Both the position numbers and the translations under genes were made by a program. Under the pieces are notes generated by a model. That model ran no database searches and was not told where the DNA came from. It saw nothing but the letters and a program-made list of their open reading frames with translations. Shown piece after piece: positions 26,828 to 34,090 of a stretch of DNA of 51,783 nt (within the stretch, counting starts at the first letter, position 1; every line of letters starts with the position of its first letter). Source of the stretch: an uncultured Methylococcaceae bacterium (GTDB lineage Bacteria; Pseudomonadota; Gammaproteobacteria; Methylococcales; Methylomonadaceae); the NCBI GenBank assembly GCA_903866825.1, contig CAIPPE010000090.1, positions 1-51,783 on the forward strand. Reading direction: 5' to 3'.

Positions 26828-26932
26828 GAAGGATCAATAATTTAAGGATTGGGGGTGAATCTATTTTTAACGGTAAGAGCCCTTATCTAAAAACAACTTA
26901 AACTTTTAAACAAAGGCTCATGCTGTTCAACG

Positions 26933-27565
26933 CTATGGGACTAATTTTTCAACTGGGTTGGAAAAGTTATAGGAGCCCATTTTGTTGGCTTCGGAACTGG
27001 TAGCGGCGACTTTAAAAATATATTTAATTCCGCTGGTTAAACCAGTGATTGTAGCCTTGGTTTTTGAAAATAACTTACTGCGCCACTCTGCATCATTTAC
27101 CGGTGCAGGAGAGGGCGAAAACAGTAAGAGATATTCATTGGCATTGGCCACTGTGCCAATTTCAACGCCCATTTCGCCGGGATTATTCCCATATTGCACG
27201 TTTAAAGTCGGTGCCTCTAAAATACCAACAGCCTGAGGTGTTTTTGAGAGTGGAAAGCCTGAGCTGTCTAATTTAACCAGATCAGATGCTGCAGTCAAAT
27301 TCACATAGGTGCCGAGTGCAGACAGTGCATTTTCTAGCACTAAACGCAGGGCGTTCTTGTTAGCCGTGTCTTCTTTATTGCCATCTTTGCATTTAACTAA
27401 TGCGGCGGAGTAAGCGAGTATCGCACTTTGGATAGTGGATAGTTCTGGTTGAGGAGCAGTGTAGTTAAGATTGTTGGTCATTTTATCAACAATTTTTTGT
27501 GCATCGTTGACTAAATCATTATCTTTAACGTCACTGAAACTGATGAGTGCTTTTTGTGTTTTCAT
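26933..27565 (-). CDS. FN3-like domain protein, unknown function
   Basis: A 210-residue protein without signal peptide or membrane segments. Residues 1-115 are helical; residues of about 117-207 look like a single fibronectin type III-type beta domain (LNVQYGNNPGEMGVEI, then ATITGLTSGIKYIFKVAATSS, then GSYNFSNPVEKLVP), where the GLTSGIKYIFKVAA strand is the familiar FN3 L-x-x-x-x-x-Y-x-x-x-V pattern. The first part resembles proteins often annotated as FN3-containing hypothetical proteins of environmental Proteobacteria. It is at the left edge of the accessory island. Confidence 0.55.
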   Translation of the reverse strand: MKTQKALISFSDVKDNDLVNDAQKIVDKMTNNLNYTAPQPELSTIQSAILAYSAALVKCKDGNKEDTANKNALRLVLENALSALGTYVNLTAASDLVKLDSSGFPLSKTPQAVGILEAPTLNVQYGNNPGEMGVEIGTVANANEYLLLFSPSPAPVNDAEWRSKLFSKTKATITGLTSGIKYIFKVAATSSEANKMGSYNFSNPVEKLVP

Positions 27566-27676
27566 AAATCCCTCTGCGATTGCCTGAAAAACAGGCGTAA
27601 TGTATCGAAATCCTATTCAATCCCCTCGTAACAAATAGATGATTCTAAGTGCTACGCAAACCAGTATAGGCCTTTA

Positions 27677-28215
27677 TCAATTTAAAGTACGATATAAATA
27701 GATTATTTTTGAAATGGTTTGGGCGTGAGGTTCAGTCTGGCAATTTAATTGTTTTTTTAAGATCCAGGCCGTCCTAAGAAAGGGTAAGAATGGCGTAAAC
27801 AAGACCTTGTTTATAACAAACAAGACCCTTTCTGTAACAAACAAGGTTCTGTTTACGGCAAACAAGGTTCTTCTTGTCGCAAACAAGATCACTTTTAGAA
27901 TAAACAAGACCTTGTTTGCTCATAGGAGAGGTCGTTTTAGAATCAACAATGAGTATCGAGGTCTTCAGTAGGCTAGAAAAGGAGCAAACAAGGTCTTGTT
28001 TGTAGCAAAAGGAACCTTGTTTAGAGCAAACAAGACCTTGTTTACTGCAAACTGATACTTGTTTACTCTAAACATTGACTCGTTTATTCTGAAGGTCTTT
28101 CCTCTGAGAGCATACCTGTTATGGTTTAGAGCAGAATAGTATTCGTTAACTGTGGTCGTGTATTGGTTTGCTATAGACTGAGGCTTGTTTGCTCCATCCT
28201 TGATCAGACATCTAC
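27677..28215 (-). pseudogene. Degenerate heptapeptide-repeat ORF over the 21-bp array
   Basis: One minus-strand frame crosses the 21-bp array with only two stops, TGA at 27965-27967 and TGA at 27920-27922. Its product is seven-residue repeats with the consensus [VLT]-N-K-[VT]-L-F-[AV], for example the pieces VNKVLFALNKVPFATNKTLF and RTLFAVNRTLFVTE. The part from 27907 down to 27677 (76 residues) is open and could start with a TTG, but I find no good ribosome binding site. I interpret it as a decayed coding region; it could instead be an accidental frame in a DNA-level repeat. Confidence 0.35.
27797..28195. repeat. 21-bp-periodic palindromic repeat array (about 19 units)
   Basis: Units begin at 27797 and every 21 bases thereafter to 28175. 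The best-preserved 16-base core is AAACAAGACCTTGTTT, a near-palindrome (arms AAACAAG / CTTGTTT) found at 27797, 27902 and 28028, with its reverse form at 27986. A 5-base spacer follows (ataac, acggc, gtagc, agagc, actgc and so on). Units at 27923-27965 and after 28091 are diverged, yet the spacing never slips. The array ends after 28195. See the findings for the two readings of this: protein-binding iterons or a heptapeptide-repeat coding sequence. Confidence 0.85.
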
Positions 28216-28332
28216 CCTACTCCGTTACACCTTAAACGCTTTCTGATATGATGATCTGAAATACATGTCATCTCTCATACTCTAACTTGATGAGCCTTAT
28301 CAATACTATCATTATTTTCAAATCCTAACTCT
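28196..28332. other. Noncoding stretch between array and methylase remnant
   Basis: AT-rich sequence with no open frame or strong repeat. Confidence 0.5.
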
Positions 28333-28518
28333 ATGAACAGCATATCAATGATTCCAAAAGTCCATAATCAAATGGTTAGTTTCATTTAGAGTGTTACCGA
28401 TGATGTTTTGCGAGATATATTCGTAAAAGGTAAATACCGCAGCTTTGCTGATATTTATTGGGCAATTAAAGATAAAATTAATGAAATCCTAACTCAACAC
28501 GCCCTTGATGATATGTAA
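28333..28518 (+). pseudogene. N-terminal remnant of an N6-adenine DNA methylase (HsdM-like)
   Basis: From the ATG at 28333 one frame reads KVHNQMVSFI, an in-frame TAG (28387), then SVTDDVLRDIFVKGKYR, matching the opening of class I N-6 DNA methylases (usual form F-I-W-x-x-A-D-D-x-L-R-D-x-F-x-x-G-K-Y-R). The TAG replaces the expected Trp (TGG). After KYR the sequence no longer matches the family and stops at 28516-28518. A dead restriction-modification or BREX-like methylase remnant is the best explanation; no catalytic motif survives. Confidence 0.55.
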
Positions 28519-28533
28519 AAGAATGGGGAAATC

Positions 28534-28755
28534 ATGAATGCCGTCATGACGTTACCTGACAAGCAAAATACCAAAACCTCTACAGATAAGAAATTGTAAG
28601 ATTTAATGCAGCAGCATTTTTTTAATCTAACCGAGTTATTTAAAAAACCCTCTGACGATAAAGATTTTCAAAGACAAAATATAGAGTCAATTTTTGATAC
28701 CCTTTGGGAACAAGGGCAATTAGGGTTGAAAGAACAAAAACGGTGTTGTTTGTAA
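28534..28755 (+). pseudogene. Unidentified broken reading frame
   Basis: The same frame as the methylase remnant continues from an ATG at 28534, is interrupted by TAA at 28597-28599, and reads on (DLMQQHFFNLTELFKK then IESIFDTLWEQGQLGLKE) to a TAA near 28755. It looks like degraded coding sequence from the same lost gene or operon, but no family could be recognised. Confidence 0.35.
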
Positions 28756-28895
28756 GACTTGAAATTAAATTTAATTTATCGCTACTTATTGGAGACTCTT
28801 TGTTTAATAGATATATAGCCCAGTATTTAGTAGTGAGATGCTTTACAAACTTGGTGCATCTAATACCCTTTAATAAGTAAAAAAGGATAGCTAAT

Positions 28896-30041
28896 ATGAG
28901 TGATAAATTTGTTACTTTTTCTATAAAAAAAAATGAGTCATTAAGTAGTATTGAAGCCAAAACTAAAAAGCTAATTTTGGATAAGAAATATAAGGTTAGG
29001 TTAAGTGCAAGTTTGGATACGAGAGGTTCATTAGGAATTGAGGTCGCACTGATTCAATTGATTGGGACATGGCTGACGCTTAACAAATATAAAAAGGTTT
29101 TTCATAGTTACCAAGAAAGCCTACCAGAATCTTTTCATAATCTTTGTTCCACCATATATGGCATTGCTGCATTATCTATGATTGAAGAAGTTTGGGATAA
29201 GACAGGTGAAAAACTTCCGAGAGGATTGGTGCTTGATGAGGCTAAGAAGACCATTGAAAATCTGAGAAAGGGTGAGTTTAGTCAGAGTTTTACTTCACGA
29301 TATTTTGGTGTTCCTTATATTAAAACACTACGTTATGATAAAGAATTTGAGATGCCTTTTTATAACGCGAATAAAGTTATAGAGAGCGCCGCTTTTCATA
29401 GGGTTGTTGAGAAAATATTAGATGAAAATATTAATGGATTTTCTAGATTTGAAAGCCTAAAAACCATGATTGAAATTAAAGATTTGTCTGACTTATTATG
29501 GGAGTTACTCAAAAATACTCATGATCATGGCCGACATAATCCTATAGGAAACATTATTCCTCAAAACTTTCGGAGCATCATTATTCAGCAGCAAGATATA
29601 ACGAATGCTTATTTAAATTCATGGTGTGGTGAAAACCCCAGTGCAGCGCAATTAAAATTTAAAAATTACTGGTATGACAGAGCAAAAAAACATTATTTCT
29701 TAGATTTGTCCATTATAGATTTTGGTGCTGGATTTGTTGAATTGGCGCAACATAAAACAAGATCTAAAGATAATATCGATGTTTTTATGAAATGCTTTGA
29801 AAAGGGATGGTCACGTTTTGACGAGAAAAGTAGAGGAAGTGGTTTAACAAAAGCTCTAAATTGTATACATAAGTACAAAGGCTGGTTACGGATACGGACT
29901 GGCAATTTATTAGTGGAGAAAACTTTCTCAGAAAATGACTTGCCTGAAATAAAAAGAGAAGATATTCAGGTGATGGATCTAAGTGTAGTGGGGACATCCG
30001 TGCACATATCACTTCCACTTCAAGGTTATAACAATAAATAA
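28896..30041 (+). CDS. GHKL-type ATPase of an uncharacterised two-gene system
   Basis: A 381-residue protein. Residues 200-375 form a GHKL (Hsp90/histidine kinase-like) ATPase domain: N-box E203-x-x-x-N207 in LLWELLKNTHDHG, G1 box D275-F-G-A-G279, G2 box RGSGL at 313-317. Residues 1-195 are helical with no recognised family and contain no phospho-acceptor histidine region, so this is not an ordinary sensor kinase; no membrane segment or receiver is present. A clear AAAGGAT site precedes the ATG. The gene is followed after 12 bases by the PRTase-like gene, so both form one unit. ATP-driven switch or clamp function is inferred from the fold. The base composition is AT-richer than the flanking core genes. 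Confidence 0.75.
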   Translation: MSDKFVTFSIKKNESLSSIEAKTKKLILDKKYKVRLSASLDTRGSLGIEVALIQLIGTWLTLNKYKKVFHSYQESLPESFHNLCSTIYGIAALSMIEEVWDKTGEKLPRGLVLDEAKKTIENLRKGEFSQSFTSRYFGVPYIKTLRYDKEFEMPFYNANKVIESAAFHRVVEKILDENINGFSRFESLKTMIEIKDLSDLLWELLKNTHDHGRHNPIGNIIPQNFRSIIIQQQDITNAYLNSWCGENPSAAQLKFKNYWYDRAKKHYFLDLSIIDFGAGFVELAQHKTRSKDNIDVFMKCFEKGWSRFDEKSRGSGLTKALNCIHKYKGWLRIRTGNLLVEKTFSENDLPEIKREDIQVMDLSVVGTSVHISLPLQGYNNK

Positions 30042-30053
30042 GGGATTATAAAA

Positions 30054-32285
30054 ATGTTTGTATTCGAATGTAAAACACATGAAAAAGATTGTCTGGTTAT
30101 GTTTCTTGGGCAATATGTTGAATCGGCTAGTCCTTCCTTATCTAGTAGCATCCAATCAGCATATAACAAAAACCTGACACCTGAATTAGTATTTTTTGTT
30201 TATCCTTCGTATCTTGATAATGATGTGAGTTCTTTTTTAGCAAATGAAAACTCTAAAATTGAGTTAACTAGACAGCAGTATTCACCTGTAATTTGTATCA
30301 GCTTTAATATTAAAGGTATATTTTCTGAAAAATGTAGATTAGATAAATTACATCCCATTAAGTTAAATATTAATTATGAGGAATTAGCTATTGACATTGT
30401 AAGGTCTGGTTATGCTCATTTAATGGCTCAAAGATGTAATGACGTTTTAGTTAAAGCACCTGCAGGAACAACCTTTGTCAAGCCATCAGGAAAGAGTTTA
30501 GAAGAGTTTATTTACGCATCTCAATTAGCTAGATGTAATTTTGAGCATCAATTTTTAGCAATGTCTTTATTACGCTATGCCCCAGACGCAGATATTATTG
30601 ATTGCATCCATATTGATACATCAAGTATTTCTCCGATTGCTGAAGCAGTAATATATTACATTTCAAAATTTCAAGTTAGAAATTGCAAACATATTACCTA
30701 TCGCAGTTTTAGTTCTTATTCCGGCTTAGAGAGTAACAACAAACCAGATAATACTGCAGGCGCCTGGGTTATTATATCTGCCTCAGCAACTACAAGTATG
30801 GGTAAAAAAATAGTCAAAGATTGGAATATCAAGCCCAAACAAGTGGTAACTATACTTTCTTATGGCTCAGTGCTTACAAAGGAAGAATTAAAAGTTGATA
30901 ATATTGGAAATGCAGTTGTGTTTTGTCTAAACGAGTATTCTTCAAGGGACAAAGATAGTTTTTCACCAATAAAAGTACAGGTTCAAGGTGAAAGCTTTTC
31001 TGCTGAAGTATCTAGTCCCAAAACAGCTTTGTTACTAAAGAAGCATAAGCCAAATTTTGTAGATACCAATATATTTAGGTATCACAATAACAAGGTTTTT
31101 TCTGTTAATAAAAATGGTCATGTTTTATATGTGGACTACATCAAGTTAAGGCAAACATATGTAGATCAAAACAATATAACTGGTAAATTGTATGATTGGA
31201 TGAAACAAGTCGTGCAGTGGACCATACCGAGAAATCTTGCCGCTATCGTTGTTAACACTGGCATTGCTGAGCGGCAGTTGCTGAATGATTTTATAAGCGT
31301 TCTTAATGAATGTGAGTTTAATGCAAATGAAATATCAATACTTGAACCCGATGATCAAACGGGAATGCAAAAAATAAAGGATGGTGCTGTGTTGGTCTTA
31401 TCACCCGCTATAAGTACAGGTCGTTTTTTTGTTGATATTAATCGAGCTTTACGATTAGCTAAGCAAAGCGGTATGCGCATTTTTGCAACTCCTTTTGTTG
31501 TTGCACCATCAAGTATTCAGTTTAAAAAGATTTCAAATAGTTTGACTCAAGCAGTTGAGGGGTTTAAATATTCCTTTTTGAACTTCCATAAAATTTATAT
31601 TGGCAGTAAGGACCTATCACCTTGGGTAAAAGAACTGGAGTTTATTAGAAAGTTAATTAATGACTCTGATGAGGGAGATAAAGGAATGGATTTTTGGCTT
31701 TCTCGCAAGGGAATTCTAGAGAGAGAAGGAAATGGCTTGGAAGGAAAAGTTGGGATTCATTATTCTAATTTAAATGAAACTCTTGATCTTGCTCCTGATT
31801 TTGTGTTTTGGCCATCTGGATATGATCCCTCCAAAATTGATTTAGAGGCAGTCTATGCAACTATTTCTGCGGTATTCCAGAACCTAAGAGATAATGAAAT
31901 TGACGGTTGTAGATTAAGCGCCAACATTTATCAGCACTGTGTTATCGATCCAGAAAATTTCGTAAGATTTAATGACTCTGTATTACAGTCTTGCTTGTGG
32001 CGATGTGCAATGCCGGGTGAGCTTGATTATCGAAGATCTGATGCTTTAAGTAGTGATATGCATAGGATATTAAGGAAGATATTTATGTCATGTGGCACTA
32101 ATCGCGGTGTAATTTCTTTAGATCTTTTAATGGGCTTAGCGATCCGTTGGATTAAAATTTCCAATGACGCAATGGACAAAGTAATCAAGGATGCAGAGAA
32201 TTATTTGGAAGAACCGTATGCAATTCTTTTGATAGAGCAAATGAAGAAAGAATTTAATACTAATAAAGGGACTAACTCTATCTAA
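30054..32285 (+). CDS. Protein with two phosphoribosyltransferase-like segments, partner of the GHKL ATPase
   Basis: A 743-residue protein with no assigned family. Two segments resemble the type I PRTase fold: around residues 140-270, with a strand then a TTSMG loop in GAWVIISASATTSMGKKIV (236-254), and around 390-500, with VLVLSPAISTGRFFVDINRA (446-465), where STG plus a following helix occupy the PRPP-loop position. The usual acidic pair before the loop is not obvious in either, so catalysis is uncertain. Residues 1-130 are a separate alpha/beta region (LVFFVYPSYL, VICISFNIKG) and 540-743 a C-terminal helical region. An AAGGGAT site precedes the start. Probably a cytoplasmic partner of the upstream ATPase. 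No signal peptide or membrane segment. The PRTase reading rests on pattern only. Confidence 0.55.
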   Translation: MFVFECKTHEKDCLVMFLGQYVESASPSLSSSIQSAYNKNLTPELVFFVYPSYLDNDVSSFLANENSKIELTRQQYSPVICISFNIKGIFSEKCRLDKLHPIKLNINYEELAIDIVRSGYAHLMAQRCNDVLVKAPAGTTFVKPSGKSLEEFIYASQLARCNFEHQFLAMSLLRYAPDADIIDCIHIDTSSISPIAEAVIYYISKFQVRNCKHITYRSFSSYSGLESNNKPDNTAGAWVIISASATTSMGKKIVKDWNIKPKQVVTILSYGSVLTKEELKVDNIGNAVVFCLNEYSSRDKDSFSPIKVQVQGESFSAEVSSPKTALLLKKHKPNFVDTNIFRYHNNKVFSVNKNGHVLYVDYIKLRQTYVDQNNITGKLYDWMKQVVQWTIPRNLAAIVVNTGIAERQLLNDFISVLNECEFNANEISILEPDDQTGMQKIKDGAVLVLSPAISTGRFFVDINRALRLAKQSGMRIFATPFVVAPSSIQFKKISNSLTQAVEGFKYSFLNFHKIYIGSKDLSPWVKELEFIRKLINDSDEGDKGMDFWLSRKGILEREGNGLEGKVGIHYSNLNETLDLAPDFVFWPSGYDPSKIDLEAVYATISAVFQNLRDNEIDGCRLSANIYQHCVIDPENFVRFNDSVLQSCLWRCAMPGELDYRRSDALSSDMHRILRKIFMSCGTNRGVISLDLLMGLAIRWIKISNDAMDKVIKDAENYLEEPYAILLIEQMKKEFNTNKGTNSI

Positions 32286-32407
32286 TAGCGGAGTGAATAA
32301 TAAATTTTTTGAGTAACCTTTAAGAGTGCGGAGTCCATTTCAGCACCTCTATTTAGGATCAGAAAATACGACAACTATTCTGACACAAAGGGCAGTCAAC
32401 AGGCTGA

Positions 32408-33019
32408 ATGAGCCAAACGAATGTTTCGTTTAGTTTTGACTTATTGGAGTGTCAACACAGCCTGACGTTTCCTGTGGCTAAGTTAACTGATTATTCTGAT
32501 AGAGTGGATGAGCTATTAAGCATCGATAATGCTTTTGCACTGATTACAGCCGCCCATATTTTAACTCAACAAACCAGAAAAAAGAGTCAAGCCCGTTATG
32601 AAGCTAAGCTGCGATTGGTAAGGTTACTCTATGAACGTCAATGGGACAAACAACGCATCATTGACTTATTTGAAATCGTTGACTGGTTGATGAAACTGCC
32701 CAAATGGTTAGAAACTAAAGTATTCCAAGAAATTGAATCAATAGAAAGGAGAGAAGATATGCGCTATATCAACAGCGTTCAAAGAATGTATATGGAAAAG
32801 TTCAGAGCCGAAGGAATGGAGCAAGGTCTTGTTAAAGGCGTATTAACCGGTGAAATTAAAGTATTAAAAAGACAACTCGAAAAACGTTTTGGTACTTTAC
32901 CCACTTGGGCAATCGATAAGTTAGATAACGCAGCAGAGCAAGAATTAGATGCTTGGTGTGAATCTATCCTAACGGCTCAAACATTGACCGCTGTATTTGA
33001 CAACGAGGCTACTCATTAA
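32408..33019 (+). pseudogene. Rpn-family (PD-(D/E)XK) nuclease, 5'-truncated copy A
   Basis: 203 residues matching the C-terminal part of Rpn/transposase-like recombination-promoting nucleases, which have an N-terminal PD-(D/E)XK nuclease domain. Here the reading frame opens inside the homologous region (YSFDVLGCQHSLTFPVAKLT equivalent at residues 8-27), and the nuclease part is missing. Downstream parts are intact: ITAAHILTQQTR, LRLVRLLYERQWDKQR, the DUF4351-like C-terminal segment (LKRQLEKRFGTLPTW). It is a relic without catalytic residues; the start MSQTN is incidental. Copy B lies at 33658-33964. Confidence 0.65.
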
Positions 33020-33123
33020 GCAATCAACAGCACAGCATAATAATTAAACTAAAGCACTCATCCACTATCGATTTAAATTTTTAAACAAGCTGATCCATGC
33101 TAAATAAAATCAAAACTATCTGG
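32430..33123. repeat. Segmental duplication, left copy
   Basis: The sequence from the Rpn fragment at about 32430 to the TGGC at 33120-33123 is repeated, diverged, at about 33730-34090. Shared stretches include the Rpn coding part and the 100-bp spacer with the first 28 bases of ybdD (ATGCTAAATAAAATCAAAAC). The right copy has lost about 330 bp of Rpn coding sequence. After TGGC this copy runs into a SUMF1-type tail instead of ybdD. Confidence 0.75.
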
Positions 33124-33194
33124 CTGTTCGCGGTTGGGATGGGCCCACGTCCCGCAACTACTATCTGGGGTTTCGGCTTGCCCAGGACTATTAA
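33123..33194 (+). pseudogene. C-terminal tail of a SUMF1/FGE-sulfatase domain gene
   Basis: The frame 33123-33194 reads VRGWDGPTSRNYYLGFRLAQ and ends at TAA. This matches the end of formylglycine-generating-enzyme (SUMF1/FGE-sulfatase) domains, where the chain ends with R-x-x-x-[N]-x-x-G-F-R-L-A. Nothing upstream belongs to such a gene; it is fused at its left side to the duplicated ybdD start. A relic joined by recombination. Confidence 0.5.
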
Positions 33195-33337
33195 CTTTAT
33201 TCTCTATACTCTTTCCTTTACGGTTGTTATGAGGGGTTGTTTATAATGCCTCGGAGTCCGACGCGATAGCATAGGACACGATTTATTTTTGGGGGGGATA
33301 TTAGTTATATAGATCGTCGGAACGGGGAGGTCAAACT
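33195..33337. other. Noncoding, recombination-worn stretch
   Basis: No open frame or clear family. It contains a short CGGAGTCCG palindrome (33244-33252) and a G7 run. Probably residue of the rearranged island. Confidence 0.4.
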
Positions 33338-33598
33338 TTAAAAAAATGTCTTAACGACAATGGACATCACGCAAGCAATCAGGACACCCATCATCCACTT
33401 GAGCGTTGTCAAGTCGGCCTTAATCACGGCTAAATCTGTTTTAATTGGCGTCAAAGCCAGTTCAAGATCAGTTTTTGTAATCAGGCTATTTTGTGATTCC
33501 ACAATAACACGGATAAAAGCATCCGCATGCTCTTGTGAAACTCCTACTGCTTTAAGTTTAATGACGGCTTCTTGCGGGTCAAATGTAATAGTGCTCAT
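33338..33598 (-). CDS. DUF1640-family small membrane-anchored coiled-coil protein
   Basis: An 86-residue protein of the DUF1640 type (related to the coiled-coil/MCUR1-like family). It starts MSTITFDPQEAVIKLKAVGV, has the conserved GVSQEHADAFIRVIVES segment, a central coiled coil of heptad D-L-x-x-I-K pattern (LELALTPIKTDLAVIKADLT) and one C-terminal membrane segment (MMGVLIACVMSIVVKTFF). Function unknown in bacteria. Such genes are often near mobile or toxin-like loci, and here it lies in the island, opposite in strand to its neighbours. Length is normal for bacterial members, so it could be intact. Confidence 0.75.
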   Translation of the reverse strand: MSTITFDPQEAVIKLKAVGVSQEHADAFIRVIVESQNSLITKTDLELALTPIKTDLAVIKADLTTLKWMMGVLIACVMSIVVKTFF

Positions 33599-33657
33599 AG
33601 TTATCTCCGTCGTTTAATGATATTAACATAGAGGTTGGGCGTGGCGTTGTCAAGCTG

Positions 33658-33964
33658 CTTTGATAGACCGGTTGCCAGTATGGCCGTGTTAGCCGATGAA
33701 AATAAACACTGGAAGCCAACCTCGTATAGCTTTGACGTATTAGGCTGTCAACATAGCCTGACGTTTCCAGTGGCGAAGCTAACCGATTATTATGATAAAG
33801 TAGATGGACTACTCAGCATCGATAATGCCTTTGCATTGATTACAGCAGCGCACATACTAACGCAGAAAACCAGGAAAGAGTGTGAAGCCCGTTATGAAGC
33901 TAAACTACGATTAGTAAAGTTACTCTATGAACGTCAATGGGACAAACAATGGATCATTACTTAA
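33658..33964 (+). pseudogene. Rpn-family nuclease relic, copy B with internal deletion
   Basis: The frame reads DRPVASMAVLADENKHWK onward into SYSFDVLGCQHSLTFPVAKL and RLVKLLYERQWDKQ, then ends in a TAA at 33962-33964. Copy A shows that about 330 bp between the IIDLFEIV equivalent and the FDNEATH end were deleted. It lacks the start of the nuclease domain. It sits directly upstream of ybdD, with the original 100-bp spacer, so it marks the older insertion point. Confidence 0.65.
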
Positions 33965-34090
33965 TTTGACAACGAAGGGACTCATTATGCAATCAACTGT
34001 ACGTAACAATCAATCCAAAGCTCTCATCCACTATCGATTTAAATTTTTAAACACGCTGACTCATGCTAAATAAAATCAAAACTATCTGGC
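33730..34090. repeat. Segmental duplication, right copy
   Basis: Counterpart of 32430-33123; see that entry. It includes Rpn copy B and the first 28 bases of ybdD. Confidence 0.75.

Follow-up and report, generated by a model that had tools for sequence, protein, structure and literature searches.

The 51,783-nucleotide contig CAIPPE010000090.1 of an uncultured Methylococcaceae bacterium (assembly GCA_903866825.1; the whole stretch is hereafter the window) encodes two adjacent genes, A and B, which almost certainly belong to PDC-M65, a two-gene anti-phage candidate of the PADLOC database. On sequence comparison, the pair is a divergent member of this already listed candidate family, and the observations taken as a whole are best explained, with moderate confidence, by an ATP-gated A-B unit acting in phage defence. 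The two genes are:

28896..30041, plus strand: gene A (PDC-M65A), encoding a predicted GHKL-type ATPase of 381 residues.
30054..32285, plus strand: gene B (PDC-M65B), encoding a protein of 743 residues with two predicted degenerate phosphoribosyltransferase (PRTase)-like folds.

The positions, lengths and common strand of these open reading frames, as well as the gap of 12 nucleotides (nt) between them, are as given in the preliminary description of the window. Plausible ribosome-binding sites were found for A (AAGGA at 28883-28887) and for B (AAGGGA at 30040-30045, overlapping the stop codon of A). The preliminary description had assigned B to no known family and regarded the pair as its best candidate for a new system, a view that did not survive the comparison with PADLOC. 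Indeed, (i) A matches the PDC-M65A profile at an E-value of 9.5e-33 over residues 8-362 of 381, and (ii) B matches the PDC-M65B profile at 2.3e-68 over residues 7-732 of 743. Neither PADLOC model carries a description, and no Pfam or NCBIfam family was named above cut-off for A or B. The PDC candidates originate in a 'guilt-by-embedding' study (reference 15 of PMC12988326, the Payne et al. 2024 preprint) and, according to the accessible part of PMC12988326, most of them are still to be validated. The name PDC-M65 did not occur in the literature searched, the accessible part of the same article included.

The pair is a sporadic and rare, yet constant two-gene unit across distant bacteria. A profile scan of named genomes with the B alignment gave 153 relatives; the counts for genome loci given here refer to the best 80 of these 153, which were selected by a single pattern located in the C-terminal part of B, where conservation is consequently inflated, and some loci are duplicated between collections (L004=L043, L024=L077). 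The preliminary description had set the pairing of the two genes in relatives as a test that could refute it. A was found directly upstream of B in 77 of the 80 loci (in two frames in L045 and L079, clipped by the contig edge in L074), and the last 70 residues of A hold this position in L085, so that A or its end precedes B in 78 of 80; in the other two, L080 and L099, the contig starts at or inside B. In plasmid records with B, A is likewise upstream in ten out of ten, the B of Spirosoma being split in two frames. A plasmid search from the A side returned 11 records, namely nine of the same set and two of R. leguminosarum, both with a B stub of 66 residues. On the R. leguminosarum Vaf10 plasmid (L187, 5863-7256), an intact A is directly followed by this stub with integrases alongside; judged from its sequence, this locus is a decaying copy. 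The A-B spacing in 76 pairs ranges from -88 to +9 nt with a mode of -4, the negative tail being an artefact of longest-frame starts. Furthermore, the identity matrices of A and B are correlated over 91 pairs (Spearman 0.57; Pearson 0.92, inflated by duplicates; Mantel 0 of 999).

According to record titles, members are present in Alpha-, Beta- and Gammaproteobacteria and in Bacteroidota, and also in isolated assemblies that bear the labels Planctomyces, Acidobacteria, Myxococcales, Syntrophobacterales and Obscuribacterales. PDC-M65B matches were obtained in 21 of 398 genomes of a phylum sample, six of them (that of the window included) below 1e-30 and 15 weak; among the four weak matches examined, three (L009, L013, L017) are proteins similar to orotate phosphoribosyltransferase (OPRT) and one (L007) is a distant pair. 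The latter (L007, 1-3498) encodes proteins of 365 and 715 residues in identical gene order, of which PADLOC matches the second alone (1.7e-6), and is a possible sister system. In a family sample, matches were found in two of 151 genomes, one of them partial with an internal stop, and no further genome of the same genus had a match among these 151. In the order of Bosea, the only one of 397 genomes with a match was Bosea itself. The pair is also encoded on three IMG/VR contigs, recovered by an alignment scan of viral contigs, with A in two frames in one of them; single-sequence scans of viral contigs and of genome contigs gave no relative. INPHARED phages contained no match to window B or to a Trinickia B, and an Enterobacter pair had no DNA match in 5,426 E. 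coli genomes.

The neighbourhoods of the relatives are rich in defence genes. The neighbour set comprised 251 proteins of 110-1600 residues located within two genes of the pair in loci L035-L114, split into 125 and 126. At 1e-10, the two parts matched 279 and 300 PADLOC models, respectively, against 7 for 126 control proteins drawn from a pool of 142 that came from 20 stretches in five genomes (not taxon-matched); these numbers count models, not proteins matched, and are inflated by redundant restriction-modification (R-M) models. The enrichment near defence genes that the preliminary description had proposed as a check was hence observed; with the pairing conserved as well, its claim withstood the refuting condition that it had set. 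Type I R-M, DrmMI/IIG-like, Qat and capP genes are among the neighbours. Clusters of type I methylase/restriction/specificity or DrmMI/IIG-like methylase genes are present at most five genes away in 14 of 93 loci, a manual union of clusters each named from a single representative, and Qat genes lie beside the pair in a P. aeruginosa plasmid locus. From this context, a role of the pair in defence is likely. Another neighbour is ThyX, which adjoins the pair in four loci (L027, L031, L033, L073): it lies upstream on the three that are Rhizobiaceae plasmids and downstream in the Bosea locus, where it is the only ThyX found in the draft genome, with one ThyA elsewhere. The four loci were counted as one clade (Hyphomicrobiales), because the Bosea B is most closely related to the B proteins of the three plasmids (33% identity).

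Protein A is, on its sequence and its structure model, a GHKL-type ATPase, with the following region:

29475..30017, plus strand: predicted GHKL region of A (residues ~194-374), with the N, G1, G2 and G3 boxes.

The GHKL residues N207, D275, G277, G279, G314, G316 and G366 are kept in all 77 aligned A sequences, and E203 in 71 of them. The best Foldseek matches of the model (predicted local distance difference test, pLDDT, 86; predicted template modelling score, pTM, 0.89) are GHKL proteins, namely ParE/GyrB, CheA P4 and Hsp90, all weak (best 4.1e-3); together with the conserved boxes, they uphold the assignment made in the preliminary description. PHROG 3364, which carries no functional annotation, also matches A, at 2.1e-12 over residues 169-376. 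At curated Pfam cut-offs no family was matched by window A, HATPase_c included, and HATPase_c does not appear in the list for the whole genome either; four of 17 members of the A family match it weakly (best 0.0058). No Pfam match to a HisKA-type phospho-acceptor domain was obtained in window A or in the 17 members. Since no Pfam family reaches its cut-off in A, the protein has no recognisable phospho-acceptor, receiver or sensor domain, in agreement with the preliminary description. No domain was assigned to the first 160 residues of A; a STAS-like domain at its N-terminus was considered and rejected (hhalign 0.2%).

Protein B appears to begin with an alpha/beta region, to continue with two PRTase-like folds and to end in a helical region, a layout read from the order of elements in its structure model (pLDDT 89, pTM 0.81):

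30054..30353, plus strand: N-terminal alpha/beta region of B (residues ~1-100), for which no relative was found.
30375..31058, plus strand: domain 1 of B (residues ~108-335), related to OPRT.
30759..30815, plus strand: putative phosphoribosyl pyrophosphate (PRPP)-loop position of domain 1 (residues 236-254), with the family consensus ISASTSG and no acidic residue at 238-247.
31056..31613, plus strand: domain 2 of B (residues ~335-520), a second PRTase-like fold according to the model and to a weak similarity to domain 1.
31389..31448, plus strand: putative PRPP-loop position of domain 2 (residues 446-465), with no acidic residue at 445-453.
31611..32282, plus strand: C-terminal region of B, mostly helical, with invariant R638, N640, D641, Q645 and R650.

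The preliminary description had noted segments resembling PRPP-loop PRTase motifs at 236-254 and 446-465. Both segments fall on strand-loop-helix elements of the model and could be the PRPP-loop counterparts of two successive PRTase-like folds, as judged from element order. The profile alignment of domain 1 with three OPRT-like proteins scores 94% in hhalign (E 9.8e-8 over 68 columns; pairwise, with no database correction). These three proteins match NCBIfam pyrE at 2.8e-22 to 1.6e-20, under its cut-off, and the one that was searched matches an OPRT structure at 9.4e-40. Domain 2 is weakly similar to domain 1 (hhalign 10.6% over 132 columns). In the Foldseek list of the B model, the first entry is followed by UMP synthase and many OPRTs and HGPRTs with probabilities of 0.96-1.00 and E-values above 1e-3, the OPRTs reaching a probability of 1.00 and a target template modelling (TM) score of 0.61; non-PRTases such as KaiC are interspersed at low probability. 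A viral structure library gave two matches below 1e-3, both with a query TM of 0.13 and discarded as meaningless.

The loop positions were assigned from the model, and the motif itself is degenerate: no aspartate or glutamate is present at 238-247 or 445-453 in any of 82 B sequences, whereas the OPRT-like proteins carry VVEDVITTGGS at the PRPP loop. Because both loops lack acidic residues in 82 of 82, the relationship would extend to the PRTase fold and not to the PRTase enzyme. The possibility that B is such an enzyme was rejected on the missing PRPP-loop acidic pair, and B is probably not a working PRTase; it was apparently built from a nucleotide-making enzyme whose usual active site has been lost. 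The invariant columns of B are D188, S221, S242, F315, R467, R638, N640, D641, Q645 and R650. A CxxC motif is present near residues 280-320 in 55 of 82 members, and a CPxC is found in the tail of the three OPRT-like proteins.

The best-supported mechanism would be an ATP-gated two-protein complex in defence. Its steps, all inferred and listed by falling certainty (complex, defence, ATP switch, nucleotide action, growth arrest), are as follows: A and B would form a complex; the pair would serve defence; the GHKL protein would close on ATP and so switch B; the altered pocket of B may still bind ribose-phosphate or a pyrimidine nucleotide; B, with its conserved C-terminal region, might act on or respond to the nucleotide pool during phage takeover; and phage growth might then be halted, probably at the expense of the cell. 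The nucleotide-linked action is a tentative suggestion, drawn from the kinship with OPRT and from the ThyX clade; if it is true, nucleotide-based immunity would gain a pyrimidine-linked branch. A more specific version is improbable: B would be a new kind of immune effector, an enzyme descended from an OPRT but independent of PRPP, which once released by the GHKL switch would destroy or divert a pyrimidine (deoxy)nucleotide, and ThyX would have been enlisted in one clade as a thymidylate bypass, either to protect the host or to tune the starvation. In the searched literature, PDC-M65 is so far a name without a mechanism; the domain reading proposed here (a GHKL switch and an OPRT-related tandem that lacks the acidic pair for PRPP), together with the list of residues and the link to ThyX, opens it to direct tests, and the window contributes a very divergent member.

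Several results weigh against this explanation. The alignment with OPRT spans B residues 122-197 and stops before the PRPP loop, and the assignment of the loop therefore rests on the model. The B model has no PDB match in Foldseek below 1e-3, its first entry being an unrelated DHQS/EPSPS chain (7u5t, 2.3e-3), and the A model has none at 1e-3; PDB sequence searches with A and with B gave no significant relative. Among six PRTases tried, domain 1 is related to none but PyrE, and domain 2 has sequence kinship to none (best PyrE, 2.4%). The Pfam families PRTase-CE and PRTase_2 each match one of 15 B members, non-significantly (0.074 and 0.29). The ThyX loci make up a single clade, and R. leguminosarum Vaf10, with its A and B stub, has no thyX within 6 kb on each side. 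Window B itself deviates at eight of 38 near-invariant columns (those shared by at least 90% of the 82 B sequences), the most of all 82 (median 1, next 6). Finally, the PADLOC candidates PDC-M63AB and PDC-S04 are described in the accessible part of PMC12409345 as lacking evidence of activity in the native host.

Among the alternatives, it is conceivable, with odds clearly below even, that B senses a ligand through its PRTase-like tandem and acts through its C-terminal region as the effector (perhaps on nucleic acid), with A as the coupling ATP clamp. PRTase-fold regulators such as PurR and PyrR bind PRPP or nucleotides, and loops devoid of acidic residues in 82 of 82 members fit binding better than a chemistry based on PRPP. 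Of the ten invariant columns of B, five belong to the C-terminal region, but the pattern by which the 80 loci were picked lies there too and inflates this conservation, and neither Pfam nor PDB gave a match there that would indicate a nuclease or another effector, nuclease motifs not having been searched otherwise.

It is rather unlikely that the window copy is a decaying, non-functional remnant of a real family. The deviance of window B at near-invariant sites speaks for it, including G403, where D is present in 75 of 82 sequences, and E406, where S is present in 76 of 82, as do the partly duplicated relics that adjoin the pair. Both frames are nonetheless full length with ribosome-binding sites, the GHKL boxes of A and the invariant residues of B are retained, and a distant lineage is expected to appear deviant in a comparison set picked by pattern. 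Window A deviates at one of 14 near-invariant columns, and the highest identity of window B to any of the 81 other aligned B proteins is 24.6%, with no close relative found; the window copy may be a divergent lineage or impaired. The weakest alternative, that the pair is cargo of mobile elements or serves their maintenance (e.g. in a toxin-antitoxin-like way) with no direct anti-phage role, would suit the sporadic distribution, the plasmid-borne loci and those near recombinases or integrases, the lack of a further match in the genus among the 151 sampled genomes and the three IMG/VR contigs, but is improbable given neighbours that match far more PADLOC models than the control and proteins (~390 and ~740 residues) oversized for a classical toxin-antitoxin pair.

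Compared with the other members of PDC-M65 in PADLOC, the pair has the same proteins, order and adjacency, with near full-length profile matches, and differs by an identity of window B of at most 25% to the 81 others and by the absence of several near-invariant residues. B shares with PyrE the kinship over residues ~122-197 and the PRTase-like fold, and differs in its PRPP-loop positions without acidic residue, its second PRTase-like fold and its additional N- and C-terminal regions. ShosTA is also a two-gene defence unit with a PRTase-fold protein; its partner is DprA-like, whereas that of PDC-M65 is a GHKL ATPase. As regards GHKL-Shedu VcSduA, whose architecture was earlier called paraMORC3 and whose ATPase motif is required for defence, the likeness lies in a GHKL ATPase with presumed control over an effector (PMC12137116, accessible part). 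In VcSduA this ATPase is fused to a DUF4263 nuclease, whereas in PDC-M65 it is a separate gene; DUF4263 had no match in window A or B, in 15 B members or in 17 A members. WonAB was rejected as the same system, its ATPase being of the ABC type according to the accessible part of PMC12137116.

The pair is located in an insertion:

26828..34062, no strand: pair-bearing stretch, absent between cstA and ybdD in all 14 other loci of the same genus.

The ybdD gene is present in 26 of 31 genomes, and 15 ybdD loci were fetched, one being that of the window. In the 14 others cstA and ybdD are adjacent, whereas 7.2 kb separates them in the window; the pair is therefore placed in an insertion that splits these two neighbours, as the preliminary description had proposed. 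The G+C content of the window is lowest (33%) at 28501-31500. Between cstA and the pair, a minus-strand frame (26933-27565) encodes an fn3-like protein with a score under the Pfam cut-off, and it is followed at 27774-28200 by an array of 21-bp units based on the palindrome AAACAAGACCTTGTTT, of which exact copies were found four times in the window and twice on contig C148 of the same genome, with none for a reversed-pattern control. The dead DNA methylase remnant of the preliminary description was not recovered: its three putative pieces in 28390-28752 match no Pfam family above cut-off, and the one piece searched against plasmids had no match. Downstream of the pair, the reading of the frame at 32408-33019 as an Rpn relic is plausible; its plasmid relatives are annotated DUF4351, and its own Pfam score is under the cut-off. 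At 32408-34090, parts of this DUF4351/Rpn-like frame and of the ybdD start occur in duplicate, in repeats of 253, 87 and 39 nt that are 83-91% identical, which was taken to indicate recombination where the insertion ends.

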